From positions 1 through 64,000 of the forward strand of contig JAGQYP010000008.1 in NCBI GenBank assembly GCA_020436025.1: a stretch of DNA of 64,000 nucleotides, given 5' to 3'. Of the stretch, positions 8,852-25,226 are shown piece by piece. The stretch's first letter is position 1. Each line of letters begins with the position of its first letter. Both the position numbers and the translations under genes were made by a program. The notes under the pieces were generated by a model. That model searched no databases. It saw nothing but the letters and a program-made list of their open reading frames with translations, and had not been told where the DNA came from. The stretch is from Crocinitomicaceae bacterium (GTDB lineage Bacteria > Bacteroidota > Bacteroidia > Flavobacteriales_D > Crocinitomicaceae).

Positions 8852-8990
8852 TCAGTTAATGTGTATTACTTATTGCAAATCTAAGGCTTTTAGAAGAAAG
8901 GATTTGTGAAAATTTCAAAATGATTTAAAAATTCAGATTGGAGGGCGTGTTTAGTTATTGATTGAAAGGGCACAATTATTGATTTTGGAT

Positions 8991-9006
8991 AGACAACTAA
9001 TTGTCT
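8991..9006 (+). promoter_or_regulatory. Small inverted repeat upstream of the CHU_C protein gene
   Basis: AGACAA-ctaa-TTGTCT, a perfect 6-bp inverted repeat centred about 28 bases before the ATG at 9027. It could be an operator half-site pair, or chance. Confidence 0.3.
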
Positions 9007-9026
9007 GTAAATTCGTTAAATTATTG

Positions 9027-11459
9027 ATGGCCGTGCTATTAAGATGCTACATACTTTTGATCTTGACTATTTTCTTTTGGGAAAATGGAAGGGCACAATT
9101 GGTTACCAACACTTCTCAGACCCCGCAGCAGTTGGTTCAGAATGTACTAATCGGAAATGGGGTCACGGTTTCCAACATCCAATTTACGGGATCAAGTCAG
9201 GCGATTGGATATTTCAATGGAACCAATAGCAACATTGGATTGAATGAAGGTATTTTGATTACAACGGGAACCGTAGTTGGGAATTCCTCCGGACCCATTG
9301 GCCCCAATAATTCAGATGGGGCAGGAACCGATAATGGTGCACCTGGATATCAGCTACTAGCGAACTTATTGAGTCCAGGAATTTCAACTCATAATGCGGC
9401 CATTTTGGAGTTTGATTTTATTCCTTCTTCGGATACATTGCAATTTCGTTTTGTCTTTGCTTCGGAAGAGTATCCCGAATATGTGTGTTCCGAATACAAT
9501 GATGTATTTGCTTTTTTTATTACCGGACCAAATCCATCTGGAGGAGCCTATGTCAATCAAAATTTAGCTATTGTCCCGGGAACAAGTATTCCGGTTACAA
9601 TCAATAATGTAAATAATGGTTCTTCAGGAGCCAATGGAAACATCATCAATTGTACTGCGCAAGGATTAGCCAACTCAGCTTACTATGTGAACAATCCTTC
9701 TTCTTTTTCGGGTACAGCCGTGCAGTATGATGGTTTTACAGTTCCCATTACATCTTTAGCCAATGTGATTTGCGGGGAAACCTATCACATGCGATTTGCC
9801 ATTGCCGATGCAGGTGACGGTGTTTGGGATTCAGGAATATTTTTGGAAGCCAACTCATTTGATAGTCCGACATCGGTTACCTTAAATGCGGATGTCAATT
9901 TTGTAGGAGCAAACGGAAATTTGGAAATGGCTGAAGGCTGTTCGCAAGCCACGATCCGTATTGAGAGAAATTCTGCCGATCTTTCGGATCAACTTACCAT
10001 TCCATTAAATGTAAGTGGCTCGGCAACCATGGGGACGGATTATTCCAATTTGCCAACAGACGTAACATTTCAGCCCGGACAGTCTTTGATAACTTTGACG
10101 ATTGATGCTTTTGAGGATTTTATAACTGAAGGTTCAGAAAATGTAATCATCAGCATTGATTTTCCCGATCCTTGCGGAAATAGCAATGTACAAACAGTAG
10201 AAATTGCCATCAATGATGTGGCACCTGTGGAAATTCAGGTTTCAGATTATCAAGTGCAATGTCCAAATGATACCGTCAAAGCAACGGCATCTATCTCAGG
10301 AGGCTATCCAGATTATTTTATTTCTTGGAATGGACAACCTTTTCAGCCTTTTGATCCGTTAGAAACCTTCGATGTATCACCAACGACCACAACCAACTAT
10401 ATTGTTAGAGCATACGACGCTTGTGTTGGAGATACAATTGCAGATACTTTTGAGGTTTTTGTCCCTCAATTTGGTCCGATCGTGATTCAGCCTATTGCTG
10501 ATACTTCAACTGCTTGTCCTTTTACGAGTTTCAGTTATACAGCATTTGTAACAGGAGGAGCTGGAACCTACAATTATAGTTGGAATGGTTCTTCGGTTTC
10601 CCAATTGACTTTTCAAGCAGCCCCAGAAACAACAACGAGTTATACTTTGGAGGTCACGGATAACTGCGGAAACTATGCGATGGAAGAATTTCAGATTATT
10701 GTTACGGGAGACATTCTGACTTCACACATTACTCCAGACACTTTGATTTGTCCGGGGGATTCCATGAATTTATCAGCATGGGCAACCGGGGGAAATCCTG
10801 GCTACAGCTATTACTGGCCAGAGGTAGGGGCAAACGAGCAGAATATTACCGTTTTCCCATTGACTACAACCACATATGTAGTGGAAATTCAGGATAGTTG
10901 TCATACTTACACGGTATACGACACCGTAGTGGTAGAAGTCATTCAGCCTAATGCAGATTTTGCTATTTTATCCAATGAGAATACAGAAGGTCTGCAAATC
11001 AACTTTTTAAATACTTCCACAGATGGGAATTTCTGGTTTTGGGATCTTGGAAATGGGGATACCAGTAATGTGATGCATCCGTCAACAGTTTACGATACCG
11101 CAGGATGGTACAATGTGTATTTGTATATAGAAAATGAAATTGGATGTTGGGATACCATTACAAAACCCATCTATATCAACCCGGAAACCTGGATTTACAT
11201 TCCCAATGCATTTACACCAAATGGAGATGGTATGAATGACTATTTCAGTGTTTCAGTAATTGGATCCACTAAATTTCAATTCTTAATCTTCAATAGGTGG
11301 GGAGAACTCATTTATGAAACAGATGATGTCAATTTTAGATGGGATGGAAAATACAAAGGAGAAAAAGTCCAAGATGGGGTATATGTCTACCAAGTTTACA
11401 TCGAAAACATCCGCGATGAATTCATTCAACGACGAGGCCACATTGTAGTTCTAGAATAG
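9027..11459 (+). CDS. Choice-of-anchor L / PKD / CHU_C surface protein
   Basis: An 810-residue secreted protein starting at ATG 9027, which opens a signal peptide (MAVLLRCYILLILTIFFWENGRA, cleaved before Gln). A TTG further upstream in frame would add a charged, non-signal N-terminus and is rejected. Residues about 25-285 match the choice-of-anchor L domain (ILITTG, FRFVFASEEYPEY, AFFITGPN). Residues about 290-400 resemble a Calx-beta domain (GTDY, TEGSENVIISID). Three Ig-like repeats of about 95 residues follow, then a PKD domain at about 645-715 (WDLGNGDTS). The last about 85 residues are the CHU_C domain (FTPNGDGMNDYF, FNRWGELIY, DGVYVY), a type B T9SS sorting signal. It is predicted to be exported to the cell surface, possibly as an adhesin. 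Confidence 0.92.
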   Translation: MAVLLRCYILLILTIFFWENGRAQLVTNTSQTPQQLVQNVLIGNGVTVSNIQFTGSSQAIGYFNGTNSNIGLNEGILITTGTVVGNSSGPIGPNNSDGAGTDNGAPGYQLLANLLSPGISTHNAAILEFDFIPSSDTLQFRFVFASEEYPEYVCSEYNDVFAFFITGPNPSGGAYVNQNLAIVPGTSIPVTINNVNNGSSGANGNIINCTAQGLANSAYYVNNPSSFSGTAVQYDGFTVPITSLANVICGETYHMRFAIADAGDGVWDSGIFLEANSFDSPTSVTLNADVNFVGANGNLEMAEGCSQATIRIERNSADLSDQLTIPLNVSGSATMGTDYSNLPTDVTFQPGQSLITLTIDAFEDFITEGSENVIISIDFPDPCGNSNVQTVEIAINDVAPVEIQVSDYQVQCPNDTVKATASISGGYPDYFISWNGQPFQPFDPLETFDVSPTTTTNYIVRAYDACVGDTIADTFEVFVPQFGPIVIQPIADTSTACPFTSFSYTAFVTGGAGTYNYSWNGSSVSQLTFQAAPETTTSYTLEVTDNCGNYAMEEFQIIVTGDILTSHITPDTLICPGDSMNLSAWATGGNPGYSYYWPEVGANEQNITVFPLTTTTYVVEIQDSCHTYTVYDTVVVEVIQPNADFAILSNENTEGLQINFLNTSTDGNFWFWDLGNGDTSNVMHPSTVYDTAGWYNVYLYIENEIGCWDTITKPIYINPETWIYIPNAFTPNGDGMNDYFSVSVIGSTKFQFLIFNRWGELIYETDDVNFRWDGKYKGEKVQDGVYVYQVYIENIRDEFIQRRGHIVVLE

Positions 11460-11497: not shown

Positions 11498-13309
11498 CTA
11501 CTTTCTCAAGTAGAACGTAAAGCCAATACCTCCAGAAAGATAATCTTGATACAAGAAATTTTGATCTATGATAGCTCCTTCAATGTAAGGGCTAATTCTC
11601 AATCGATCAAAATAAATGTCAATTCCAGCCGTCCAAGTCATCCAAAATCTTCCTTTGTCAATAGTCATGACCTCATCCGTAGGGACTCCCTCAAAATAGC
11701 CTGTTTGCTCATTTAAGTAAACATATTGATAGATATTGTTTGGATCCCCTCCACCATAATCAAAATTCCAGTTACGCGTTGAGTCTCCTCTGAAAATGAA
11801 ATTATCGAATTCCTCAAAAATGGGGTCTGCATTGTAACCAGGGTAGTCGGATTTATGCTTTCCAGGAGCAATGAAATTGAGATTCACTCCACCGTTCACC
11901 CCTATAAATAATTCCGGAGTAACATCATATTTTACGTTCAATTTTTGACCAATCGAAATGGTATGCAATGTTTGGCGCATAACCGTAGTTCTTTGTAAAT
12001 AAGAAGAAGTATTGTTTACCCAATTGATGTCGTATTTCAACACTTTGGCTTCTGTATCGTATTCAGAGAATTGGTAATTCAAACTCGCTTCGTATGAAAA
12101 ATACTTTACCGGTTCAACTTCAACACCAAAAGAAAGTTTTGGGAAAATACTGATTCTTTTGATACGACCTAATCCAACTAGTGTGTATGCCGTATCGGTA
12201 ACAAATCCACCTGTAGGTCCAACACCAGATTCAACTCTTTGATTGTAGAGGTACACATTTTCAGTAAATGCTGCTCCATTTTCCATGATCAAAACAGTAT
12301 CTTTTGGATATCTTTTATCATATAAACTGTTCACGTTGGTATAAATTGGGACATGTGCACCAACGCTCAATTTGATGATTTTACTTTTCTCTTTAAAATC
12401 ACCCAGAACTTTTAATTCTTCTTCTTTTAGTTTTTTACGATCATCTGCATTTCGAATGTTAAAATTGAAAAGAGAATATTTCAAGAAAAAGCTGATTCCA
12501 GTAATGTTTTTGTACAATTCAGAGTAGGGATTACTTGTTTTATCTACTTCATCTTTAAACTCGTATTCTTGAGTATAACCGACCGATTGTCTCAAATTCA
12601 ATCCAAGTTGCATGTTGTACAGTTCAATACCCGCTCCAATATTGATAAAGAACAAGTGTGAATTCAATCGAGGTAATTTTCTGTACAAAGGTGAATAATC
12701 TTCAATCCAATAGGATGAATAAATCAATGACTGGTAGTGGTTTTTATTTGTTCTTGAATTCCATTCCACTCCCAAAAGGGCAAAAGGACGAAATTTCTTA
12801 GTTCTCAAGAAGGTATATCCAAAATTCAATGCGACATTATTGTACTGGGTAACTTCTTCGTAAGCCACTTGTTCTTCCCAATACTCTTTCTCACGATTGA
12901 AATATTGATCGTAATAATCCAGTCTAAACTGATTTGGATCATTGTAGCCACTATTAGGGTAATCCTGTGTTAGATTATACATTACCCATCCATTAAGTGT
13001 GTAATCACTATAATTCGCAGTTCCGTATCCTTTTGTAGTTAATTTTTCTGTTGAAAAAGAGAGTTCAGTCCAAAAACCAAAATTTGTTCTGAACCGAACA
13101 AATACCGGAATGCTATAAGACATGTTCATTTTCACTTGGTCGAATTTCATGAAAAGTGTATCGTCATAGACATCAACGATTCCGGAAGTAAAGTCATCGT
13201 TGCTTTTCATCCAGTTAAAATTGCCTTTCGCTCCAATCCCCAGTTCAAATCGCTGTCCGAAAGAAAAAGTAGTTGTAAGGAGTACAAGTAGAAGTAGTTT
13301 TTTTACCAT
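11498..13309 (-). CDS. Outer membrane protein with two tandem beta-barrel-like domains
   Basis: A 603-residue protein with a signal peptide (1-18, ending FSFGQ). Residues about 20-285 and about 310-603 each read as a PorT/OmpW-like barrel, with alternating hydrophobic strands rich in Tyr, Phe and Gly (FGYTFLRTKKFRPFALLGVEWN; SFGVEVEPVKYFSYEASLNYQFSE is a second-half example shortened here to its core FSYEASLNY). A charged linker (about 285-310, KKLKEEELK) separates them. The C-terminus IGFTFYLRK is strand-like but does not end in Phe. Its ATG overlaps the last codons of the WD40-caspase gene (ATGGTAA overlap), so the two are translationally coupled. A membrane partner or export role for the caspase protein is an inference. 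The family is not named. Confidence 0.75.
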   Translation of the reverse strand: MVKKLLLLVLLTTTFSFGQRFELGIGAKGNFNWMKSNDDFTSGIVDVYDDTLFMKFDQVKMNMSYSIPVFVRFRTNFGFWTELSFSTEKLTTKGYGTANYSDYTLNGWVMYNLTQDYPNSGYNDPNQFRLDYYDQYFNREKEYWEEQVAYEEVTQYNNVALNFGYTFLRTKKFRPFALLGVEWNSRTNKNHYQSLIYSSYWIEDYSPLYRKLPRLNSHLFFINIGAGIELYNMQLGLNLRQSVGYTQEYEFKDEVDKTSNPYSELYKNITGISFFLKYSLFNFNIRNADDRKKLKEEELKVLGDFKEKSKIIKLSVGAHVPIYTNVNSLYDKRYPKDTVLIMENGAAFTENVYLYNQRVESGVGPTGGFVTDTAYTLVGLGRIKRISIFPKLSFGVEVEPVKYFSYEASLNYQFSEYDTEAKVLKYDINWVNNTSSYLQRTTVMRQTLHTISIGQKLNVKYDVTPELFIGVNGGVNLNFIAPGKHKSDYPGYNADPIFEEFDNFIFRGDSTRNWNFDYGGGDPNNIYQYVYLNEQTGYFEGVPTDEVMTIDKGRFWMTWTAGIDIYFDRLRISPYIEGAIIDQNFLYQDYLSGGIGFTFYLRK

Positions 13310-16275
13310 ATTCTGAAATCACTTTTAAGGTTTTCCACACGAGAATTCGGACTTTGACGTCCACTAGTTAATTCAATCACTCGAATATTCAAATAAGTTT
13401 GCAATTCGGAAAGCATGATTTCCCCATCTCGGTTGAGGTCGGCATGTTTATTTTCCAATCCATCCAAAAGGGTATAGGTAAACACCCCGTTGTTCCATTC
13501 TTTTCCTTCGATGGCATATTCGGTACCAGAAGCCGAAGAAATCACCGTAGCTCCATTTGACTCACGCGTATCAGCAAAAAGCATTTTCGACAGCTGGAAG
13601 GTACTTACGGATTGTCCATCTTTTAAAGCCACACTATTTCCTACAGCTCTAAAAGTGATATCATCTTCATCTTCAACTACATTTTCTGAAATGGCAACCT
13701 CATCTTTATCTACTTCACCAGAGTGACAAGCATCTAAAAGCAATAGTTTTTTTCTTGACTTGGTGGCTTCCAGAATATGCTCAAAAGATTCAAAGGATAT
13801 TCCTCTTTCTTGTGGTTTGTAGAAATCCATGTCGTAGGATGCAAAATAGTAATCCAATTCATCATCCAATACTCCGTGACCCGCAGCAAAAATGATAACC
13901 ACATCGTTGTATTTTGCATTTTTCACAAAATCAGTTAGTGTTGAAATTCGGGCATTTGTAGCATCTGCATCTGAAAGGTTTTTCGTGTAGATATTCTTAT
14001 AAATTTTTGATTTCTCAAATTTGTGAATGACATCTTTGGAGTCTTTCGAGGCATAATTCAAATTGAATTTCTCCATATTGTATTTACTCACTCCGATGGT
14101 CACCAAATACAAATCAGGTTTTCTTTCCTTGAGTTTACTTTCAATAACGAACGACTCTTTCAAGGATTTAATTCCTTTGGCATTCACTGCAAATATTTCA
14201 ATGAAATTATCTCCGGGAGTTAGAGGAACCGTAATCGCAATGTTTACTTCCTGTTTTTTCTCGATCAATTCAGGAGCGTCTTCCAATAATGGAACACCAT
14301 TTACAATCACTTTAAGATCAATAATAGCTTCTTTTGGATCGGTTGCTTTACATTGGAAAGTGATGTTATCTGTGAAGGTATTTTGTTCTTCAGGAGGCAA
14401 CACTTCCAATTGTGGAAGATCCGATGAGATTTTAATATCCTCAATCGTAATTCCTAGTTTTTTCAAACGTTTTTGATAAGCTTTATTCATTTCTACTACC
14501 AAGGATTGTTCAATAAATGGCAGTTTTTCATAAATCAAATCCGGACGATTGTATTTTACATCAAATTGATCAAATGGAAATACATTCCCTTCCCAGCTAA
14601 AGGCTACATTTTCTAAAGCACCTTTGGAGGCAAAATAATAAGATTGCGGGTTTAACCAAAGAAAATCTCTTTGACCAGTTAAATACAAATCAGCAATTCT
14701 ATTCAAATCCTGGCCTTCCCAAAAACGAATCGAACCATCCCAACTGTAAGTAATGGCAACATTGTATTTTTTATTGTAATCTACCCCAGTAATCAAATCT
14801 GAATGCAGCGTTTGAACTCTTTTAGAAACATCTCCCGAAGAGTTATTGAAGGTTTCCAAATGCCCATTTTTCACTCTGAAAAAATCTCCATCATTTAATG
14901 CGGCAGTTTGTTTTGAATTTTCATCCAGGAAGTAAGTCTGCCAAACAATTTGTTTTCCAGAAGCTTGTCTGACGATTAAGCCATTACTTTTGTCCTTGAG
15001 AATTTCTCGAACCAATCTTATTTCATTTTTCTTAATGTCCCATTCGCCTACCCAAATTTCACAAAACGAAAGCTGATTGGTGTTTTCTTCAAAAGGTTTT
15101 GTTTTAAGTGCTTTGAATTTCAGGACATTTCCAACCTGTTCGTCTAAAGAGATAATGGCATATTTCCATCCTTTCAATTTTTTCTCTTGTGGAAAATACA
15201 ATCGGTTGGAAATAACGTTATTACTGATTAGGTTTATTTTTCTAAGAATACCATTGGAGTAACCAATTAACAGTTCATCTTCATCCTGGCTAAATTTTGC
15301 TACATTGATGGGATTCGCTTCACCTTTTAACAATTTGGTCATTTTCTTTGTTTCATCATCCCAAACAATAATATTCCCTTCGATATCGGCCGATACAAAT
15401 GAATTTTTATCTTTTCCAAAACAAACGGAAGTAACTTCAGATAAGTGACCTTTGAAATAGTTGTAAGTTGTAAAATCACGTTTTAGGATTTCTTCTACAA
15501 TTCCATCTGCACGCGCAATCAATATTTTATTTCCGAAAAAACCAACATCATTCACTGCGATCAATGGACTGGGTAAACAATACCTTTTTTCAGTCATCGT
15601 TCGCATATTGTAGTAATAAACTACACCATATAGATCACCAATCACATATTCATTCATGTAAGAATCGATTGAGGTCGCATTTGCTGTAATTGATTTCACA
15701 ATATTCAGGTTGTCTTCCCGAATAATTCTAGTAAACTTATCTTCACGTCCTCCATAGATGATATAGCCTGGCTCATCCAAATAATGAACGGCATCATAGT
15801 GGTCAAAAGAAAGTGCTTTTAAAGTTCTGATATTGAAACTGGAGTCCATTAAATGTAAGAATCGAGTTCCAATAGCCACATTGTGATTTTTTTGGTTAAC
15901 CGCTACTGCTTTACATTTATTTTTAAATGGTCCAATGGTCTTTAAAATTTCCAAATTTCTGGCATCGATCAACTTAACCGTACTATCATCACTACAAGAA
16001 ATCAGTGTAGAGTCGTTATAAAATTCGATTTTATTGATTGCTGCTTTGTGCGCAATGATCTCAGTTTCTTGTTTCCCTGTTTTAACATCCCAAAGAATAA
16101 TTTTGGCATCTTTTCCAGCAGAATAGATTTTAGTATTGTCATGGCTGTAGATCAATGAATTGATTTTTCCAGCATGACCAGTTTGAATGATTACTTCGAG
16201 TTCTTTTTGAGAATTGAGTTTAGTCGTAAAGAAGCAAAGAATCAGCAACGTCGAGTAAAGCGTTAAGAATCTCAT
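13303..16275 (-). CDS. Secreted WD40 repeat protein with C-terminal caspase-like (C14) domain
   Basis: A 990-residue protein with a signal peptide (residues 1-22, ending TKLNSQ). Several WD40 repeats occupy about 28-345 (for example GHAGKINSLIYSHD...AKIILWD and GHLSEVTSVCF...IIVWDD), with a further WD-like stretch near 490-520 (SWDGSIRFWEG). An Ig-like linker at about 630-715 leads to a caspase/metacaspase fold from 718. The catalytic dyad is intact: His800 in FAAGHGV and Cys850 in LDACHSG. A single EF-hand-like loop (DLNRDGEIMLSE, about 946-957) follows, in line with the Ca-dependence known for metacaspases. The protein is predicted to work in the periplasm or at the surface, unlike cytoplasmic caspase-like death effectors. 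It lies 63 bp after the alpha-2-macroglobulin gene and overlaps the barrel gene. Confidence 0.92.
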   Translation of the reverse strand: MRFLTLYSTLLILCFFTTKLNSQKELEVIIQTGHAGKINSLIYSHDNTKIYSAGKDAKIILWDVKTGKQETEIIAHKAAINKIEFYNDSTLISCSDDSTVKLIDARNLEILKTIGPFKNKCKAVAVNQKNHNVAIGTRFLHLMDSSFNIRTLKALSFDHYDAVHYLDEPGYIIYGGREDKFTRIIREDNLNIVKSITANATSIDSYMNEYVIGDLYGVVYYYNMRTMTEKRYCLPSPLIAVNDVGFFGNKILIARADGIVEEILKRDFTTYNYFKGHLSEVTSVCFGKDKNSFVSADIEGNIIVWDDETKKMTKLLKGEANPINVAKFSQDEDELLIGYSNGILRKINLISNNVISNRLYFPQEKKLKGWKYAIISLDEQVGNVLKFKALKTKPFEENTNQLSFCEIWVGEWDIKKNEIRLVREILKDKSNGLIVRQASGKQIVWQTYFLDENSKQTAALNDGDFFRVKNGHLETFNNSSGDVSKRVQTLHSDLITGVDYNKKYNVAITYSWDGSIRFWEGQDLNRIADLYLTGQRDFLWLNPQSYYFASKGALENVAFSWEGNVFPFDQFDVKYNRPDLIYEKLPFIEQSLVVEMNKAYQKRLKKLGITIEDIKISSDLPQLEVLPPEEQNTFTDNITFQCKATDPKEAIIDLKVIVNGVPLLEDAPELIEKKQEVNIAITVPLTPGDNFIEIFAVNAKGIKSLKESFVIESKLKERKPDLYLVTIGVSKYNMEKFNLNYASKDSKDVIHKFEKSKIYKNIYTKNLSDADATNARISTLTDFVKNAKYNDVVIIFAAGHGVLDDELDYYFASYDMDFYKPQERGISFESFEHILEATKSRKKLLLLDACHSGEVDKDEVAISENVVEDEDDITFRAVGNSVALKDGQSVSTFQLSKMLFADTRESNGATVISSASGTEYAIEGKEWNNGVFTYTLLDGLENKHADLNRDGEIMLSELQTYLNIRVIELTSGRQSPNSRVENLKSDFRIW

Positions 16276-16338
16276 CCTTAAAATTTTGACTAAAAATAAT
16301 AATTATGAGATTCAAAACCAATACTCAAAATTGGGTAC

Positions 16339-19300
16339 TTACTCCACCGTCACCCGAATACCTTCTGAATGGCTTGTAAATTCAGGCGCATACATGCATT
16401 GGGCAGTGGTAATTCCATTTGAAAATTTTCCTTTTTGCGTGGCAAACATTTCATATTCGAAAACATAAGTTCCTTTTGGTAATTGTCCAAAGAAGAAATT
16501 TGTTGCCGCATCTTTAGTTGCCTCGTAGTAACCCAGACCATCTTGCCACTTGTACTGAGAAAGTACATTTAACGGTTCGAAGGACGAAGCACGCATGTCT
16601 TTCAAGTGCACATATTCCATGTCGCGATCAACTCGGATTTCAATACGTACTTTGATCTTGTCACCTACTTTGATTGGTTTGGACGTGATCGGTTTCAATA
16701 CAGGTCCGTTATCCGTGTTGGTGACCACAAAAAGATCTTTCTTAATGGAAAGCGGTGTTTCATGGAAAGTGATTTTATCCAGCTGTTCAAAATATTGCCA
16801 GTACAAAGCTCCCCAAGAAACAGTTTTGGAATTGGATTTTACTTTTACTTGTCCCATTTCCGGCTTAATGGCATCGCCTTCCCAGCTGGTTTTGAAATAG
16901 CCTGTTCCGGGTTCTGGCTTCACGTTGTACGGACTTTCTTTTCCTTTTGAATTGTATCGAATTGGCTCATTTCCTATTTGAATATCCGGATAAACAGTCT
17001 CAGAAAGTAAATCATCTCCAGTTAAGAATAAAGCATAACAAGCTTCTGTAGTGGCTTTTGTTGTGGGCCATTCATTGGTCTGTTTTTGTTTGATCAACCA
17101 GGTTTTCATTTCATCCACACTGTTCAAATCCTCCGTGATTTCGTAAAATGCTTCGATCAATAAGGCTTGAGATTCAATTGGAGCTTGGTACCAGTAATAA
17201 CCACTTCCTTTATTTTTCCAGTACATTCCCAATTCATCATGTATGATTGATTTTTCCTTCAAAGATTTCATGATGTCTTGCGCAAAGGCTTTTTGATCAT
17301 TTCGGTGCATTGCCAAAGCCATCATTCCTTGAGAATAAGGGTTAAAGTTTAACCAGAATAGTTTGGCTTGTCTTTCAAAATAATCGATTGCTTCCTGCAA
17401 TTTTTTGGACTTGCTGTGATCAGGGAAGAAGCTACGTGTATACAAATAGTGGATTTCATCATATCCGATCATTTGTACTTTTTCATAATTGTCTACGTGC
17501 TTTTTGATCCATTCATATCTTTCGATGAATTCACCATCAATAAAGGAAATTCCTTTGTTCACCATGGTTTTGATCTCGTAATTTGATTTGATGCTTTTTA
17601 CCCCAAGCTTATCCAAATGCCCGAATCCACACATGATGTGTTTCGTAATGTAATAGCTTTCCGGCCCATTTTTAAACCAAGGCCATCCACCATTGTACTT
17701 TTGGTTTTGCTTCAATTTTCTCAAGGCACGATCTAATTCGTTCGACATTCTATTCAAATCAAATAAAACACCGATTCTTCTTTTTCTTGCTGATTCATCT
17801 TTAGCGTTCAAAAGCCATGGAGTTTCTTCCAACATGACTCCCTTCAATTCCTGATTTTTCTCCAAATTGGATAAGAAGGCTTCCGGAGAATAGTTTTTCC
17901 AAGCATCAAAAATCTCTTTGATCTTTGGGTTGGAGTTCATGATGTGACTAGCAATCGAATTCGAATAGAATCTAGAGAATGTTTGCTCGTTACATTCATA
18001 GGGATATTCCATGATATACGGCATGGCCTGAATCGCATACCAAGCTGGATTTGGAGTGTATTCCAAGGTTAATCGATGGCTTTTTAATGTAGAGCTTGGC
18101 TGAGATTTAAACAGTTTCTCAAAAGTGAAAGTTTTTGATTTTCCAGCTTTCAAACTCATTGGCATGGATTCCGTTACCAGCATTCTGTTCGTTAAAACTG
18201 GAATTGGTTTTTCTTCCCCATCAGAAAATTTGGCAGTTTGAGCAACCACTTTGTATTTTACTGCTCCTATTCCTTCCGGAATAATCAATTTCCATTCAAC
18301 GCTGGTACTCAATTTTGCTTTTGTTTCGAAGCTCTGAGTTTGGTTTTCCATTTTGAAATCACCACTCACTTCATTTCCTGTAAACGGATCGATTAGTTCC
18401 AATTTGATGTTTCCAGATTGTACTTCATCCGTTAGGTTGGAGATTTTTGTATTGAAATAAATGGTATCCATTTCTCTAAAGAATCTTGGATCATTTGGGA
18501 AAACCATCAAATCTTTCTGAGTAACAATTTCTTTTTGAATCGTTCCAATTTTAAGATCTTGAGTATGAGCCAATGCCAGGAATTTCCACTTTGTCAGGGC
18601 ATCAGGCATGGTGAATTTAATCTTCACAGTTCCATCAGCTTCCGTATATAAATTCGGATAGAAGAATGCGGTTTCATTAAAATTCTTTCTGATTTGAACA
18701 GATTTTCCGCCTTCCCTGTTATCCATTCGGCTATCCAATTGACCATTACCATCAAGTGCAACCGTAAAGGCATCAGCTTTACCCGATTTGTCTTGATCTT
18801 TAAAGTCACCTTCTCCATAGGCAAAAGCAGCATCTTCTGAAACAGAAAGCTCTTCTTCAGCTACTTCATCCATCATCACTACTCCGCCAACAGCAGGTGC
18901 AGCATTGTAGGCTTCTTTGGCTTCCATTTTCTTCATTTTTTCTCCGCCACCACCGTTACGAGAATAATTTCCCGTTGAGGTAGATCTCCATTTGTAAGTA
19001 TAGTAGGAGTCGTAGTAACTTGGATTGAAATAGAACCAATTGAGATTGTAATAGCTTACTCCGTATGCGTAAACATATGGATTCCAGCTGTGTTGTCTTA
19101 GTGAACCACTTTGTGCCATGGTTCCAAATCCTACTTGCCATCTTAGTTTTTGATAGTAGGAATCTCGAACATTCAAATAGAAAGAGTTACTTGCAAATTC
19201 ATCTAAGGAAGCATCGTACATGGTTGCTAAAACTTCAGCCAAGACGCCTTTGTTTTCATTGTCTTTAATCTCCAAAGTCCACTCTTCTTCTGTTCCAGGA

Positions 19301-22300
19301 TATAACTTATCTCTGAAAGTAGAGAATTTAAGATCGAGATCCTTGTTGGTATAGGGAACCGAAATAGTTGTATTGTAATTGAATTCTCGGTTGTTGTAAT
19401 TTGTATTGAAGGAGAAAGCAATATTCCCTCTATACTCTTCTTTGATTGGAATTCGAATCACTTTTGCATTTTCGTTTAAATCGATCCATTTGCGTTCCAC
19501 CAATTTGCCTTTAACTTCCAATTCGTAAAGAACCTTCAGATTTTTTCCTTTGGTTCCCACCATGATTTGTAGTTCCTCTCCCGGTTCAATCCATGTTTTG
19601 CTGGTTTGAACATATAAAACCACATTATTCGGAATTGTTTTTGATTCGAAAGAGATCACCGTGAAATATTGGATATCTTCTATGGTATTTCCATATTTAT
19701 CCGTGCTTTTTGCTGAATATTTATAGGTTCCGGTAACCAATCCTTTCACCTTTTTAAGATCCATGATGTTTTTGTCTTCTCCCTTGGTGGAAAGTGTCTT
19801 GGCATAAACTTCTTTTTCAACTTCCCACTTATGTACTTGGTTTTCGTCGTCGTATTCGTACCCTGAGAATTTGGTTTTGAAGTTTTCCTTGGTCCAACCT
19901 CTCTGTCCCGGTTTGTCAAATAAATAAGCCTTCATTGGTTCATTTGGAACCTTGAGTTTCTCGATTTTAACATTGACATCCGTCTCCACTTTCTCTCCAT
20001 TTAGATTTAGTGCATTGACATAATATTCTAATTTTTTGTTTCCAAGATTTACCTGAGATGGTAAGTTTGAGCTTAATTCAAATCCAGTATATCCAGCATA
20101 AACAACCTTCGAAGCTGAATGCGTTTCTCCATTAATATCAGTCACAGTAGCATAAATGGTATACGAATATTTTGGTTGAAATTTCTGCTCTACACTTTCA
20201 TCTGGCTTGGCTGTAAATCGAATTTTAAATTCGCCTTTATCGTCCGTTTCGATATCGCCATTTTTAATTTCAAACGAAGTGCTTCGAGGTGAATAGCCCC
20301 ATCTCCAGTAGCACCAGCTTGGGAAGTAAGCGTTTCTGGTTACTCGGTAGTTTACTTTGGCACCGTCCAACATATTTCCGGCAAAGGCTTTTGCAAAACC
20401 AATCACTTCAATCTCATCTCCTACACGGAATTCTCCTTTTACCTTTTTGTAATCGACTTCAAATTTTGGTCTTTTGTATTCCTCAACTCTTATATTTTTC
20501 GATCCATAACTGGTATAAAGTGTCATGTTTCCGGTAACAACACCTTGAGGAGCTGTGAAAGTCCCTTCAAAAGTTCCGTATTCGTTGGAAGTCACATCTA
20601 CATCTGCAATTTTTTGATAGTTGTAATCTTTCAAAGTCACTGTTGTTTTAAACCCAGGAACAATCTTCGGATCTTTTCGATCCCCGTTCCAAACAATTCC
20701 TTTGAAATAAACCTCTTGTCCGGGTCTGTAAATGGCTCTGTCCGTAAAAATTTGGATTTGATTTCTTAAATAAGGTTTCGAATTGTATGGCTGATACAGG
20801 TAGCCACTCGAAGGAATGAAATCATCTTTATACTTTACCTCGTATTGGTAATTTTGATAGCGTTTTCCTCGAGCAGTGATCATTCCATTTTCGTTGGTAG
20901 TGTAGTTTCCAAGAGTTTTTTTAGTGTACTTTCTTAGTTTGTAATTGTACTCTCTTGAAAAAACTTCCACATTAGCTCCAACAATAGGTGCACCATTCAT
21001 TCTGTCATTAACAAATACTTCTATTTCTTCGGTTTCCTGATTGGTTCTTTGTTTCGACATCAAACCAGTAGATCTGTAGGTGGAATAAGACCAGGCTTCT
21101 TTTTCTTCATCCAAAGTCTCGCTTGAAGAAAAGGTAATGATATAATGTCCTTTTGGCAAACCAGGAATTTCATATTCAGTAGTATGCCAGTTGTAATCTT
21201 TGATGTCTTTTAATTCGATGATTTGGGTGTGTTCTGGTTTTTGACCATTCAATATTTTTGCTGCTTTTTCGAAATCATCGCTCTCCCATTTTTCTTGGTC
21301 GTAAGCATAAATTCGATAGTATACTTTTGGAACGTTTTTATAAGAAAATCTCACCATTCCCGGAGTATTTGGAAGAGCTGCTGATTCATTCTGGTGACTC
21401 ATGCTTTTATTTTCGATCTCATTTTGCAGTTGTTTGCAGAATTGTGCACCTATGGTTCCGTCATATTTTTCAATAATTTCCGTACAAATTTCGTGGGCTC
21501 TTGCCTTGTCTTTTTTGTGTTCATCTCCTTTTTTCTCATCGTATAAATTCCCGTCGGCACTGATCTTCTGGGCAATTTTATACATGATTTCGGGATACAT
21601 GATTTTATGATCGGCATAGGTTTTCGACATGGCTCTTAAGGTGTTCATATACAAATCTTCCTTATTCTCAACTGTAGAAGAATTCTTAGCCCAATCCAAT
21701 CGCTTTAATGTAAGGTCAATCAAGGCAATTGGATCTTTGTCATCCATGTGTTGTTTGGTTAAAAACTGATATACTTTTAATGCAAAAAACTTGGTAGATA
21801 AACTATCGTTGGTCACAATATAGGTGTCAGCAAATCGCTTGGCATCTTCCAAAAAGTAAGGCTTGTTGAAATTGAAAGTTTCAGCTGTACGAGTAGGCAC
21901 ATCAAATTCAGTATTCTGGAAAAAATCGATGGCTCGGTGTCCAACAAGATCCAAAAGAGTAGGTCTACGAAGAACATTCTCCTTATTTAAAGTTGTAAGA
22001 ATGGCAGAATAATCAGCGATATTATTTTCCTTCAAAACTTCCAGATTGGAAACCGATAACATGTAGTGATTTCTGGTTTGCTCAGCAATCGTTTTCAAAT
22101 CCCAGGTTTCAATGTCTTCAATTTTCATGTCCACCACCTGAGTACGATTGTAAATTCGCCATCTGTTTCGCTGATAGTATCCCCAATACACTTCAGCAAG
22201 AATAGAATGAGCTACCGATTTTGCAGGCTCCGGAAAAGTTTCTACTAAAAGGCGAAGATCATTTACCGCCGTTGGATAATCGTCTTCTCTCAAATAAGAA

Positions 22301-22650
22301 TTGAATTTAATGGTGAAAACAGTCGCTTTGATAATTTGAGGATAGTTTTTATCCTTCAAAGCTTTTTCCTTGATCTTAAGTACTTCATCATAACAAGATT
22401 TCACCAACCCCTTTTGCTCGAGAGAATCTACAATAGCCCATTCTTTTTCGTAGCGATCAAAACGCTCTGGACGTTCTCCTTTAGGAAAAATCGCTGGCTT
22501 GCCTTGAGTGGTATTTTGAATAATCATTTCTGTATCACTCTCAATATTTTGCCTTTTGAACTTTGCATTTTGCATTTTGAAAACGATCGTGGCGGATCCG
22601 ATTCCTAAAACAGAAATAATAAGTGCAAGTGCTAAAATCTTAATTTTCAT
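16339..22650 (-). CDS. Bacterial alpha-2-macroglobulin with intact thioester motif
   Basis: A very large (2103-residue) protease-trap protein. From the ATG at 22650, residues 1-27 form a hydrophobic signal-anchor (ILALALIISVLGIGSATIVF) without a lipobox Cys. An in-frame start 25 codons upstream would put a polar stretch before it and is less likely. Residues about 50-450 are helical and TPR-like. Macroglobulin beta domains follow, with the MG2 hallmark FTDRAIYRPGQEVYFKG near 630. A Gly/Ala/Asp/Glu-rich flexible segment (about 1230-1330) is a likely bait region. The A2M domain (WKFLALAHTQDL) follows, then the thioester CNEQ at 1553-1556 in the alpha/alpha complement-like toroid. It is predicted to be periplasmic and to trap proteases covalently. 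No pbpC neighbour is present, unlike the E. coli-type arrangement. Confidence 0.93.
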   Translation of the reverse strand: MKIKILALALIISVLGIGSATIVFKMQNAKFKRQNIESDTEMIIQNTTQGKPAIFPKGERPERFDRYEKEWAIVDSLEQKGLVKSCYDEVLKIKEKALKDKNYPQIIKATVFTIKFNSYLREDDYPTAVNDLRLLVETFPEPAKSVAHSILAEVYWGYYQRNRWRIYNRTQVVDMKIEDIETWDLKTIAEQTRNHYMLSVSNLEVLKENNIADYSAILTTLNKENVLRRPTLLDLVGHRAIDFFQNTEFDVPTRTAETFNFNKPYFLEDAKRFADTYIVTNDSLSTKFFALKVYQFLTKQHMDDKDPIALIDLTLKRLDWAKNSSTVENKEDLYMNTLRAMSKTYADHKIMYPEIMYKIAQKISADGNLYDEKKGDEHKKDKARAHEICTEIIEKYDGTIGAQFCKQLQNEIENKSMSHQNESAALPNTPGMVRFSYKNVPKVYYRIYAYDQEKWESDDFEKAAKILNGQKPEHTQIIELKDIKDYNWHTTEYEIPGLPKGHYIITFSSSETLDEEKEAWSYSTYRSTGLMSKQRTNQETEEIEVFVNDRMNGAPIVGANVEVFSREYNYKLRKYTKKTLGNYTTNENGMITARGKRYQNYQYEVKYKDDFIPSSGYLYQPYNSKPYLRNQIQIFTDRAIYRPGQEVYFKGIVWNGDRKDPKIVPGFKTTVTLKDYNYQKIADVDVTSNEYGTFEGTFTAPQGVVTGNMTLYTSYGSKNIRVEEYKRPKFEVDYKKVKGEFRVGDEIEVIGFAKAFAGNMLDGAKVNYRVTRNAYFPSWCYWRWGYSPRSTSFEIKNGDIETDDKGEFKIRFTAKPDESVEQKFQPKYSYTIYATVTDINGETHSASKVVYAGYTGFELSSNLPSQVNLGNKKLEYYVNALNLNGEKVETDVNVKIEKLKVPNEPMKAYLFDKPGQRGWTKENFKTKFSGYEYDDENQVHKWEVEKEVYAKTLSTKGEDKNIMDLKKVKGLVTGTYKYSAKSTDKYGNTIEDIQYFTVISFESKTIPNNVVLYVQTSKTWIEPGEELQIMVGTKGKNLKVLYELEVKGKLVERKWIDLNENAKVIRIPIKEEYRGNIAFSFNTNYNNREFNYNTTISVPYTNKDLDLKFSTFRDKLYPGTEEEWTLEIKDNENKGVLAEVLATMYDASLDEFASNSFYLNVRDSYYQKLRWQVGFGTMAQSGSLRQHSWNPYVYAYGVSYYNLNWFYFNPSYYDSYYTYKWRSTSTGNYSRNGGGGEKMKKMEAKEAYNAAPAVGGVVMMDEVAEEELSVSEDAAFAYGEGDFKDQDKSGKADAFTVALDGNGQLDSRMDNREGGKSVQIRKNFNETAFFYPNLYTEADGTVKIKFTMPDALTKWKFLALAHTQDLKIGTIQKEIVTQKDLMVFPNDPRFFREMDTIYFNTKISNLTDEVQSGNIKLELIDPFTGNEVSGDFKMENQTQSFETKAKLSTSVEWKLIIPEGIGAVKYKVVAQTAKFSDGEEKPIPVLTNRMLVTESMPMSLKAGKSKTFTFEKLFKSQPSSTLKSHRLTLEYTPNPAWYAIQAMPYIMEYPYECNEQTFSRFYSNSIASHIMNSNPKIKEIFDAWKNYSPEAFLSNLEKNQELKGVMLEETPWLLNAKDESARKRRIGVLFDLNRMSNELDRALRKLKQNQKYNGGWPWFKNGPESYYITKHIMCGFGHLDKLGVKSIKSNYEIKTMVNKGISFIDGEFIERYEWIKKHVDNYEKVQMIGYDEIHYLYTRSFFPDHSKSKKLQEAIDYFERQAKLFWLNFNPYSQGMMALAMHRNDQKAFAQDIMKSLKEKSIIHDELGMYWKNKGSGYYWYQAPIESQALLIEAFYEITEDLNSVDEMKTWLIKQKQTNEWPTTKATTEACYALFLTGDDLLSETVYPDIQIGNEPIRYNSKGKESPYNVKPEPGTGYFKTSWEGDAIKPEMGQVKVKSNSKTVSWGALYWQYFEQLDKITFHETPLSIKKDLFVVTNTDNGPVLKPITSKPIKVGDKIKVRIEIRVDRDMEYVHLKDMRASSFEPLNVLSQYKWQDGLGYYEATKDAATNFFFGQLPKGTYVFEYEMFATQKGKFSNGITTAQCMYAPEFTSHSEGIRVTVE
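18655..18965 (-). other. Candidate bait region of the alpha-2-macroglobulin
   Basis: Residues about 1230-1330 contain four consecutive Gly, then Lys/Met/Glu-rich, Ala/Val/Gly-rich and acidic low-complexity stretches (EKMKKMEAKEAYNAAPAVGG, GEGDFKDQDKSGKADAF). They sit directly before the conserved NETAFFYP segment that opens the A2M domain. A flexible, protease-accessible stretch here is where bait regions lie in this family. Confidence 0.55.
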
Positions 22651-22679: not shown

Positions 22680-22734
22680 CAAATTTATTTACTGAGCTGT
22701 ACAGTCGACTTTTGAAATGGTTCAATTATTTTTG
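22680..22734. promoter_or_regulatory. Divergent promoter elements for A2M and the 83-residue protein
   Basis: TAAATTTG on the minus strand (22687-22680) lies 29 bases before the A2M start. TATTTTTG on the plus strand (22727-22734) lies 14 bases before the ATG at 22749. Both match the -7 element TAnnTTTG. I see no well-spaced TTG at -33 for either, so they are half-supported. Confidence 0.45.
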
Positions 22735-23380: not shown

Positions 23381-23382
23381 CT
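23137..23382. repeat. Two 102-bp direct repeats, 144 bp apart
   Basis: Copies at 23137-23238 and 23281-23382 differ at only about three positions. Each contains GCTTCAGCAAACTGG and the segment AAAGCGACGGCAGGAGCGATCT. The right copy touches the nitroreductase stop codon (23381-23383). The high identity means a recent duplication. Confidence 0.9.
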
Positions 23383-24058
23383 AATAAACCACCATCACAT
23401 CCTCCAAACCTTTTCTACTCAAGTTTGGAACATGTGCATCATCTGCTGGATAGCCAACTGGAATCAGCAAAAAGGGTTTTTCATTTTCTGGGCGATCTAA
23501 AATTTTCGTTAGAAACCCCATTGGAGAAGGAGTATGTGTCAAAGCTACTAAGCCGGCATTGTGAATTGCTGTGAGCAGGAATCCAGCCGCCAAACCAACA
23601 CTTTCATTGACATAATAATTCTTGGCTTTTCCACCATCTTCTTCCAAATCATAAGACTTTTTACAAACGATGATGAGGTAAGGAGCAACAGTTAAAAATT
23701 CTTTCACTTCGTTGGTGGCAAATACTTTGAGATCATCCAACCATTCGTCACCCATTCGACCTGAATAATTGATTTTTTCCTCTTCTTCGGCAGCTTCCCG
23801 AATTTTACGTTTCATTTCCTGATCCTTTACAATACAGAAAGTCCAGGGTTGTTTGTGCGCACCGGAAGGAGCTGTAGACGCTGTTTTAATGATATTTTCA
23901 ATTACTTCAAAAGGGACTTCTTTGTCTGAAAATTCCCTTAAGCTTCTTCTTTGATCAAAGTATTCGTAGTAGTCTTTCGACCTTTGAATCATTTCTTCTT
24001 TGGAGTATTGTTGAGCTTTGTAGGGGATAAAATCTTCAGTTCTATTCGAAGTCTTCAT
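23381..24058 (-). CDS. Nitroreductase family flavoprotein, iodotyrosine deiodinase-like
   Basis: A 225-residue FMN enzyme. The N-terminal FMN phosphate-binding motif is RRSLREFS (from about residue 37), followed by TAPSGAHKQPWTF, which contacts the flavin. The central AAEEEEKINYSGRMGDEWL segment resembles the active-site lid of the iodotyrosine deiodinase (IYD) branch rather than the NfsB branch. Whether the protein dehalogenates tyrosine derivatives cannot be told from sequence. No signal peptide, so cytoplasmic. The start codon overlaps the 3' end of the upstream NamZ gene by 17 bp, so the two are co-transcribed. The C-terminus is bounded by a repeat copy, but the reading frame is complete. 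Confidence 0.88.
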   Translation of the reverse strand: MKTSNRTEDFIPYKAQQYSKEEMIQRSKDYYEYFDQRRSLREFSDKEVPFEVIENIIKTASTAPSGAHKQPWTFCIVKDQEMKRKIREAAEEEEKINYSGRMGDEWLDDLKVFATNEVKEFLTVAPYLIIVCKKSYDLEEDGGKAKNYYVNESVGLAAGFLLTAIHNAGLVALTHTPSPMGFLTKILDRPENEKPFLLIPVGYPADDAHVPNLSRKGLEDVMVVY

Positions 24059-25226
24059 ACAATAAATATTTTTTCCTTTTCAGTTTGAATTTTTCCAATC
24101 CGGTGGTCCATTTGGCTCGGATTTCGGCTTCGGTTTTGCCAGCCATGATTTCCTGTTGAATACCGTAAACGCCCAACAATTTATTAAAAAAACCGGTCTT
24201 CTTGAAGAAGTTCTTGCCTAATTTGGTTTCATGATAAAGCTCCAAAAGCCAGTGAAGAGTCACTTTTTTCTGACTCCTTGCAAACTGATATCCATAATTG
24301 GTGAGATCATATCCTTTACAAAGTTCTCCTTCCAATTTGGGTTTTTTCGATCCAAAACTTGGAGTGGGAGTAAATTCGTAAGTGCCTTTTGAGAATTTCG
24401 GATGACCAATGATTTGAAAAGGTTTGTCTGTTCCACGACCCACACTAATTTCCGTACTTTCAAACAGACAAATGGAAGGGTAGAGGTAAATGGAACTCAT
24501 GGTTCTTAAATTGGGTGAAGGAGGAATAGGCAAGCGATAGAATTTTTTGTGATTGTAATTTTTCATTTTGATCACTTTCAAGTCCGCTTTCAAAGAATCG
24601 CCCAACCAACCTTCGCCATTGATCATTTGTGCGTATTCGCAAATCGTCATTCCGTGTACAATGGGAACAGGATGCATTCCAACAAAAGATTGCAATTTAG
24701 GATCGAGTACAGGCCCATCCACATAATGCCCATTTGGATTAGGACGATCCAGAACAATGAATTTTTTCCCTTTTTCAGCGCAGGATTGCATCACATAATG
24801 CATCGTAGAAATATAAGTGTAGAATCGCACACCCACATCCTGAATGTCAAAGAGAATCACATCCAATGAATCCATGTCTTCCGCTTTCGGCTTTTTGTTT
24901 TTTCCATAAAGTGAAACAATTCGAATCCCTGTTTTGGCATCTTTTTGTGAAGCTACTTTTTCTCCCGCATCCGCAGTCCCTCGAAAACCATGTTCAGGGG
25001 CAAAAACCAAACGAATATTCACCCCTTCCTTCAAAAGTCGATCGACCAAATGTTCCTTTCCAACCATGGATGTTTGATTGGCCACAATTCCTACTCTTTT
25101 ATCTTTTAAATCCGGTAAATATTGATCCAAAAGCTCTGCAGCAACAGTAATGTCATTGTCAAAGTACTGAGCCTGCAAAAGACCTGAAAAAGAAAGGAGT
25201 AAGGAGAAAAACAGCAGTCGAATCAT
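24042..25226 (-). CDS. Exo-beta-N-acetylmuramidase NamZ-like (DUF1343)
   Basis: A 394-residue protein with a signal peptide (1-19, ending LLQAQ). It has the full DUF1343 pattern: GIVANQTSMV near 45, FAPEHGFRG near 75, the DVILFDIQDVGVRFYTYISTM segment (given here in part as FDIQDVGVRFYTY), LDRPNPNG and VHGMTICEYA. The family founder NamZ releases terminal N-acetylmuramic acid from the non-reducing ends of peptidoglycan fragments, so a role in cell wall recycling or scavenging outside the cytoplasm is likely. No MurNAc uptake or catabolism genes are nearby. The gene overlaps the nitroreductase gene by 17 bp at its 3' end. Confidence 0.9.
   Translation of the reverse strand: MIRLLFFSLLLSFSGLLQAQYFDNDITVAAELLDQYLPDLKDKRVGIVANQTSMVGKEHLVDRLLKEGVNIRLVFAPEHGFRGTADAGEKVASQKDAKTGIRIVSLYGKNKKPKAEDMDSLDVILFDIQDVGVRFYTYISTMHYVMQSCAEKGKKFIVLDRPNPNGHYVDGPVLDPKLQSFVGMHPVPIVHGMTICEYAQMINGEGWLGDSLKADLKVIKMKNYNHKKFYRLPIPPSPNLRTMSSIYLYPSICLFESTEISVGRGTDKPFQIIGHPKFSKGTYEFTPTPSFGSKKPKLEGELCKGYDLTNYGYQFARSQKKVTLHWLLELYHETKLGKNFFKKTGFFNKLLGVYGIQQEIMAGKTEAEIRAKWTTGLEKFKLKRKKYLLYEDFE

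Follow-up and report, generated by a model that had tools for sequence, protein, structure and literature searches.

The question raised by this locus is which of three consecutive minus-strand genes belong together. The window, by which we mean the whole analysed stretch of 64,000 nucleotides from Crocinitomicaceae bacterium (GCA_020436025.1, contig JAGQYP010000008.1, positions 1 to 64,000 of the forward strand), encodes an alpha-2-macroglobulin (A2M), a protein combining WD40 repeats with a caspase domain (WD40-caspase) and a double barrel-like protein, and a preliminary description had joined the three into one putative operon. The order and coordinates of the genes are borne out by open reading frame (ORF) and Pfam checks, as are the 63-bp gap and the 7-bp overlap between them, but the operon is not, since the caspase-barrel pair alone is conserved, and we conclude that the unit very probably consists of the caspase and the barrel and not of all three genes. 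The features concerned are:

11498..13309, minus strand: tandem barrel gene (ORF, 603 aa; exported, predicted outer-membrane protein)
13303..16275, minus strand: WD40-caspase gene (ORF, 990 aa; Pfam WD40 and Peptidase_C14)
16339..22650 (ATG) or 22725 (TTG), minus strand: A2M gene (Pfam; 2103 aa from the ATG)
13303..13309, minus strand: overlap of caspase stop and barrel start, 7 bp (ORF coordinates)
16276..16338, minus strand: gap between A2M and caspase, 63 bp, without a terminator-like hairpin in the window
13876..13878, minus strand: codon of catalytic His800 (AGHG), invariant in both alignments
13726..13728, minus strand: codon of catalytic Cys850 (DACHSG), invariant in both alignments
17983..17994, minus strand: thioester motif CNEQ (CxEQ in 16 of 16 aligned sequences)

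The genome to which the window belongs (G000; 192 contigs, 98% complete) contains one A2M of the window family, a second A2M of 1858 aa elsewhere, and six WD40-caspases.

Conservation of the caspase-barrel gene pair

The best 80 of 352 caspase matches in GTDB species genomes gave 78 named loci, with flanks of at most 10 kb that are often cut by contig ends, and together with the window and seven further loci these make up a neighbourhood table of 96 caspase rows. In the caspase tree, the window-type caspases form a group of 18 (Shimodaira-Hasegawa-like approximate likelihood ratio test, SH-aLRT, 81) and a group of three (SH-aLRT 100), and since one of these 21 rows (L165) ends with its contig, 20 have downstream sequence. 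In 18 of the 20 a co-directional ORF follows the caspase at a distance of -62 to +3 bp and encodes an exported protein of 247-650 aa, and kinship of the downstream protein to the window barrel is shown in 15 of the 20 by hidden Markov model (HMM) or hhalign. Ten of these 15 are tandem barrels by HMM (L118 included), single barrels are found in Reichenbachiella faecimaris (L120) and in L121, and the proteins of L123, L128 and L136 are barrel relatives by hhalign at 95-96%, to be compared with at most 2.3% for two control sets (neighbours that are TPR-SpoIIE proteins, and neighbours that are N3 lipoproteins, described below). The 19 partnered caspases were picked from 28 rows of similar length by use of the tree, and the first L117 row among them is the longer open piece of a caspase copy that an in-frame stop interrupts; the remaining nine of the 28 rows (L145, L148, L149, L154, L156, L161, L169, L189 and L191) fall elsewhere in the tree, no adjacent barrel relative was found for them, and the N17 neighbours of L156 and L191 reach less than 1% against the barrel by hhalign.

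Seen from the side of the barrel, a scan of the 399 genomes of the order, in which three candidates were scored per genome, placed the tandem barrel at 13 sites in 11 genomes, of which 12 adjoin a caspase and the 13th lies at a contig start. Likewise, in a set of 59 genomes (that of the window and 58 relatives, with up to 14 caspase candidates scored per genome), the barrel is present in G000, G001 (two copies), G004, G008, G020 and G025, and each barrel adjoins a full-length relative of the window caspase. Pairwise distances of the two proteins correlate over 10 caspase-barrel pairs (r 0.88), although common descent would also give a correlation. The caspase and the barrel thus constitute a conserved, overlapping and exported gene pair, and the earlier proposal that the barrel is the membrane partner of the caspase is therefore well founded. 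No description of such a pair was found in the open-licence literature at the level of titles and abstract openings.

A barrel is furthermore linked to WD40-caspases in a different gene order. In 12 loci holding 13 caspases, a single barrel is found at position -2 and a lipoprotein at position -1 in 13 of 13 cases, the lipoprotein belonging to family N1 in eight and to family N3 in five, and the lipobox cysteine of N1 is invariant in 10 of 10 aligned members. According to their titles these loci stem from Bacteroidales, Chlorobi/Chlorobiota, Acetofilamentum and unplaced Bacteroidetes, and their caspases fall elsewhere in the caspase tree than the window type. Compared by hhalign, the single-barrel profile and the first half of the tandem barrel match at 98.8% (E 5e-17); Pfam OMP_b-brl_2 is matched by five of 12 single-barrel relatives but not by the window barrel. 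In two additional loci, L150 and L173, a barrel match occurs three genes upstream of the caspase. The strongest argument for the two working together is that the barrel recurs beside caspases of distinct lineages in another gene order. It is conceivable that the pair simply consists of co-transcribed envelope proteins with housekeeping roles and without physical or catalytic coupling, and indeed the gene overlap alone argues for co-expression only, but we hold this to be decidedly improbable, since the barrel link recurs in separate lineages and since the tandem barrel has never been seen away from a caspase, the only site lacking one being that at the contig start.

Several observations nevertheless weigh against the caspase and the barrel being a dedicated pair. 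The larger of the two tree groups has moderate support, the caspase and barrel genes of L118 are convergent and overlap at their 3' ends by 4 bp, the L142 caspase is without such a barrel partner, and although L126, L127, L080 and L081 each encode a downstream protein whose size and position would suit a barrel, no kinship to the barrel was detected for these four. In the complete table, 62 of the 96 caspase rows show neither barrel arrangement, among them the five other caspases of G000 and some rows at contig ends. The single-barrel profile matches the second half of the tandem barrel more weakly (hhalign 62%) and gave one weak match in 395 genomes of the phylum with at most six candidates scored per genome. 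Finally, the two halves of the window barrel are not detectably alike by sequence (hhalign 13%), and the confidence of the barrel model is moderate.

It should also be mentioned that a lipoprotein family carrying a GPEGGxINFY motif is found beside the single barrel and the WD40-caspase (L160:5993-6763, L166:7059-7808, L120:13674-15239 and relatives), and that three of 10 members match PepSY_like. A reading of the N1 lipoprotein as ZU5, made by eye from the GPEGG motif, was discarded as it has no Pfam support.

The WD40-caspase and the tandem barrel protein

With a Peptidase_C14 score of 47.4 bits against a Pfam cut-off of 21.4 and with His800 and Cys850 unchanged in all 8 and all 22 sequences of two alignments, the window protein included, the caspase belongs to peptidase C14 as judged by profile and catalytic dyad. 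The preliminary description of a signal-bearing WD40 protein with a caspase domain is hence upheld by Pfam, by the alignments and, for the signal, by eye; the EF-hand-like loop that it also mentioned is present in the window caspase, but the loop positions vary among homologues. The signal peptide is followed by two propellers (about 28-540), an Ig-like (beta-sandwich) segment (about 620-713) and the caspase domain (about 720-990). In a model built from 22 sequences, with a predicted local distance difference test score (pLDDT) of 80.5, residues 28-540 align with the double propeller 2ymu (VIA-align Z 37.7), and a low-confidence stretch, 852-905, comes directly after the catalytic cysteine. 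A search of the PDB with the caspase domain alone gave no match at E 0.1, and structure searches with the whole protein returned matches filled by propellers. Among the fold matches are the twin WD40 propellers of Apaf-1 from the animal apoptosome (3shf, 3j2t), a likeness that many other twin-propeller proteins among the matches, UAF1 and Pwp2 for instance, show as well; in contrast to Apaf-1, the window caspase appears to be exported, and no NTPase domain was found among the best 25 of 40 family matches.

Signal peptides and lipoboxes were assigned by visual inspection. The hydrophobic N terminus of the caspase is followed by Gln23, invariant in 22 of 22 sequences, and the signal peptide of the barrel ends before Gln19, which is present in all 7 and all 10 sequences of two alignments; in both proteins this agrees with the 'Q-rule' for signal peptidase I of Bacteroidetes set out in the available part of PMC5837995. 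Most WD40-caspases with a visible N terminus in the loci examined look exported as well. Among prokaryotic metacaspases WD40 has been reported in 10.9% (73), and N-terminal helices that are perhaps signal peptides have been noted (PMC3501461, available part). The window caspase has the C14 His/Cys dyad and the WD40 repeats in common with these proteins, but differs in its N-terminal double propeller, its export and its overlapping outer-membrane barrel gene, a pairing that the available part of PMC3501461 does not mention. An identity as EACC1-associated caspase (NCBIfam NF047832) was rejected, the score being 69.3 against a cut-off of 140 bits. Of the PADLOC models, a generic caspase model matches the window caspase at 30.7 bits and there is a match to its WD40 region at 27.8 bits; no PADLOC model matches the A2M or the barrel at E 0.1.

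No Pfam family matches the barrel protein. An AlphaFold model from 10 sequences (pLDDT 72.4, predicted template modelling score 0.62) shows two barrels of eight strands each, the first spanning residues about 17-285 and the second about 306-603. In VIA-align the first of these aligns with NspA (Z 16.3), OprF (16.2), OmpW (15.9) and a Legionella porin (17.1), and the second with OmpA (1qjp, Z 14.7) and the designed barrel 6x9z (15.6). Since the model aligns as two separate small barrels, the term double barrel used in the preliminary description is fitting, and taken together the signal peptide and the closed barrel of the model define the protein as a predicted outer-membrane beta-barrel. Each half thus resembles the eight-stranded OmpA/OmpW/NspA class, while the window protein differs from this class in that a single chain carries both barrels. 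Outer-membrane chains with several barrels in tandem have been predicted previously; our search of the open-licence literature found no paper on them. Foldseek matches to large TonB-type barrels were set aside for their low TM-scores.

One weak match of the window barrel to PorT/SprT (E 6e-4) may, together with the signal peptides on both proteins, suggest that the barrel is a delivery device helping the caspase to cross to, or stay on, the cell surface in a manner akin to two-partner secretion or to an accessory of the type IX secretion system (T9SS). This is distinctly unlikely, since the match reaches 19.2 bits against a cut-off of 125 and occurs in just one of 10 homologues, so that a PorT/SprT identity was rejected, since no T9SS tail is found on the caspase among the best 25 of 40 family matches, and since eight-stranded barrels are too narrow for the passage of proteins.

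The alpha-2-macroglobulin and its linkage to the pair

The start of the A2M gene is ambiguous, the mechanical ORF running from a TTG at 22725 and the ATG at 22650 being more plausible; counting from the latter the thioester motif CNEQ falls at 1553-1556, exactly as previously described, and counting from the TTG at 1578. MG2, A2M and bMG10 score above their Pfam cut-offs, the bait-region model A2M_BRD stays below (19.6 vs 22.7 bits), and CxEQ is found in all 16 aligned A2Ms (the window protein and 15 relatives) as CNEQ in the window and CAEQ or CSEQ in the relatives. After the first 100 residues, the least conserved stretch is about 1251-1350 (TTG numbering), just ahead of the A2M domain, as would be expected for a bait region. 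By its thioester and its MG2, A2M and bMG10 domains, all of which it has in common with type I bacterial A2Ms, the window protein is classified from sequence as a type I-like thioester form. According to the available part of PMC5764988, type I A2M genes adjoin pbpC in a number of bacteria. No PbpC-type gene lies beside the window A2M, and with regard to such a partner elsewhere, which the preliminary description would have counted against its model, the genome does encode one PbpC-type (BiPBP_C) protein, but on a third contig and beside neither of the two A2Ms in the stretches examined. As a separate observation, two A2M genes of the window family occur in tandem in L213 and L212 (genomes G289 and G244).

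The preliminary description joins A2M, caspase and barrel into a single surface or envelope module whose trap may restrain the caspase or be triggered by it, and in both genomes available for the genus (G000 and G001) an A2M is indeed found upstream of a caspase. In the sister species (G001, L117) the A2M is followed by caspase copy 1, a barrel, caspase copy 2 and a second barrel; however, the A2M-proximal copy 1 (L117:2181-5141) has an in-frame stop whereas copy 2 is open throughout, and it is copy 2 that the window caspase resembles more (77%, against 57% for copy 1). Furthermore, a terminator-like hairpin follows the A2M stop in this species (L117:2093-2114; nine pairs, one of them G-T, with a TTCG loop and then seven T) and so separates A2M from caspase. 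Terminator-like sites there number 8 against 6.6 expected from shuffles and are thus not in excess as a class, but this hairpin tops the list with five G-C pairs against three in the other sites. In the 63-bp gap of the window no terminator-like hairpin was found, so that read-through and co-transcription are possible in the window species; promoter-like matches at the window locus are no more frequent than in shuffles.

Beyond the genus the A2M linkage was not seen. The A2Ms of G004, G008, G020 and G025 lie on another contig or 0.4 Mb from the barrel, and among 15 A2M neighbourhoods of relatives there is one WD40-caspase, in G037 (L105), which is convergent with two ORFs between; we judged this proximity to be due to chance because G037 has about eight caspases. 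A clear A2M turned up in just one of the 78 named caspase loci, L117, the flanks of many loci being truncated, and matches of 19-20 bits in 211-aa proteins of L149 and L154 were judged spurious. Among the 399 genomes of the order (A2M cut-off E 1e-100, caspase cut-off E 1e-60, two candidates scored per genome) 86 have an A2M of the window family, 40 a caspase and 30 both. The A2M surroundings were fetched for all 28 both-family genomes beyond the genus, in 25 of which a gene can be seen 3' of the A2M, and a co-directional caspase as the next gene was found in none of the 28, a caspase anywhere in the fetched flank in one (the convergent paralogue of G037) and a barrel match in none. Of the proposed neighbourhood, the caspase-barrel pair is therefore conserved while the A2M order is common to the sister species only, and on account of these linkage tests and the sister-species hairpin the A2M is rejected from the operon; it is probably an independent neighbour and a separate periplasmic trap.

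What may still speak for a common system is the co-occurrence of the two families at the genome level, a window-family A2M being present in 30 of 40 caspase genomes as opposed to 56 of 359 others (odds ratio 16, uncorrected for kinship and genome size). By genus the figures are 13 of 17 with a caspase and 13 of 53 without, kinship again uncorrected, and in the 59-genome set, where G021 with a lone weak C14 was counted as a caspase genome, they are 12 of 16 against 6 of 43, or 10 of 13 against 1 of 13 for the larger genomes. These tests ignore kinship, however, and over the 59 genomes caspase number also correlates with genome size (rho 0.51) and with the number of SpoIIE-phosphatases (rho 0.66, or Spearman 0.50 after removing genome size by ranks), of which G000 has 35 of SpoIIE type. 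The co-occurrence could reflect a common lifestyle just as well as a common pathway, and a single system of all three genes is, in our estimate, quite unlikely. The search of the open-licence literature found no paper combining alpha-2-macroglobulin, caspase, WD40 and Bacteroidetes.

A number of further neighbours deserve mention. Nine genes of one TPR-SpoIIE cluster (two of them Pfam-checked) are found in seven loci at most two genes from a WD40-caspase, one of the nine lies 2 bp downstream of a WD40-caspase in G000 (C170, L082), and in L096, L099 and L101 (genomes G025, G004 and G008) a protein of about 650 aa is encoded directly after the A2M on the same strand, the TPR-SpoIIE make-up having been checked in the L099 member. 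Just upstream of the window A2M, genes for a NamZ exo-muramidase (24042-25226) and a nitroreductase (23381-24058) overlap by 17 bp, as they do in the sister species. The plus-strand gene at 8958-11459 is convergent with the barrel gene and encodes a CHU_C type IX secretion tail along with Calx-beta and PKD domains, and the minus-strand gene at 37063-39156 encodes a protein that carries an adenylate/guanylate cyclase domain at its C terminus and also has a match to TPR.

Possible roles of the caspase-barrel pair

On the domain make-up and gene pairing established from sequence, and on export by inspection, it may be proposed that the two genes form a module of an exported caspase tethered to the outer membrane and its tandem barrel, a proposal to which we give an even chance. 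The barrel would hold the caspase at the periplasmic face of the outer membrane, and the propellers would offer a docking or sensing surface. The caspase would probably be kept inactive until an envelope signal arrives, with the 852-905 stretch as the likely activation loop, and once activated it would cleave a substrate in the envelope. Elsewhere in the Bacteroidota the tandem barrel would be replaced by a single barrel together with a lipoprotein, and the A2M would be an independent periplasmic protease trap that came to adjoin the pair in one genus. More tentatively, and with considerable doubt, one may envisage a Bacteroidota family of outer-membrane-tethered caspases gated by a dedicated barrel, whether single with a lipoprotein or tandem. 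Such a family would be the periplasmic equivalent of caspase-activation platforms, and A2M, present in the same envelopes, would serve in trans as a safety trap.

A caspase domain with an intact dyad outside the cytoplasm, as export by eye would have it, could alternatively be an envelope executioner in cell death, for which the barrel would be the substrate or the opened pore, permeabilising the outer membrane of the cell itself or of a neighbour. The overlapping genes suggest matched amounts of the two proteins, and surface or fratricidal roles have been suggested for extracellular prokaryotic metacaspases in the available part of PMC3501461. Barrels of OmpA/OmpW size are however poor pores, no toxin domain was found in a Pfam search of the window proteins, and the presence of up to ten WD40-caspases per genome fits a housekeeping or signalling family as well, so that we regard such a function as unlikely.

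WD40-metacaspases have already been catalogued and bacterial A2Ms studied (PMC3501461 and PMC5764988, in their available parts). What changes with respect to the first reading of the locus is that the A2M is taken out of the unit. Bacterial caspase-like proteases have mostly been viewed as switches that operate in the cytoplasm, in cell death or phage defence. One type of WD40-caspase is here bound by gene order to an outer-membrane barrel, which provides it with a concrete and testable partner.

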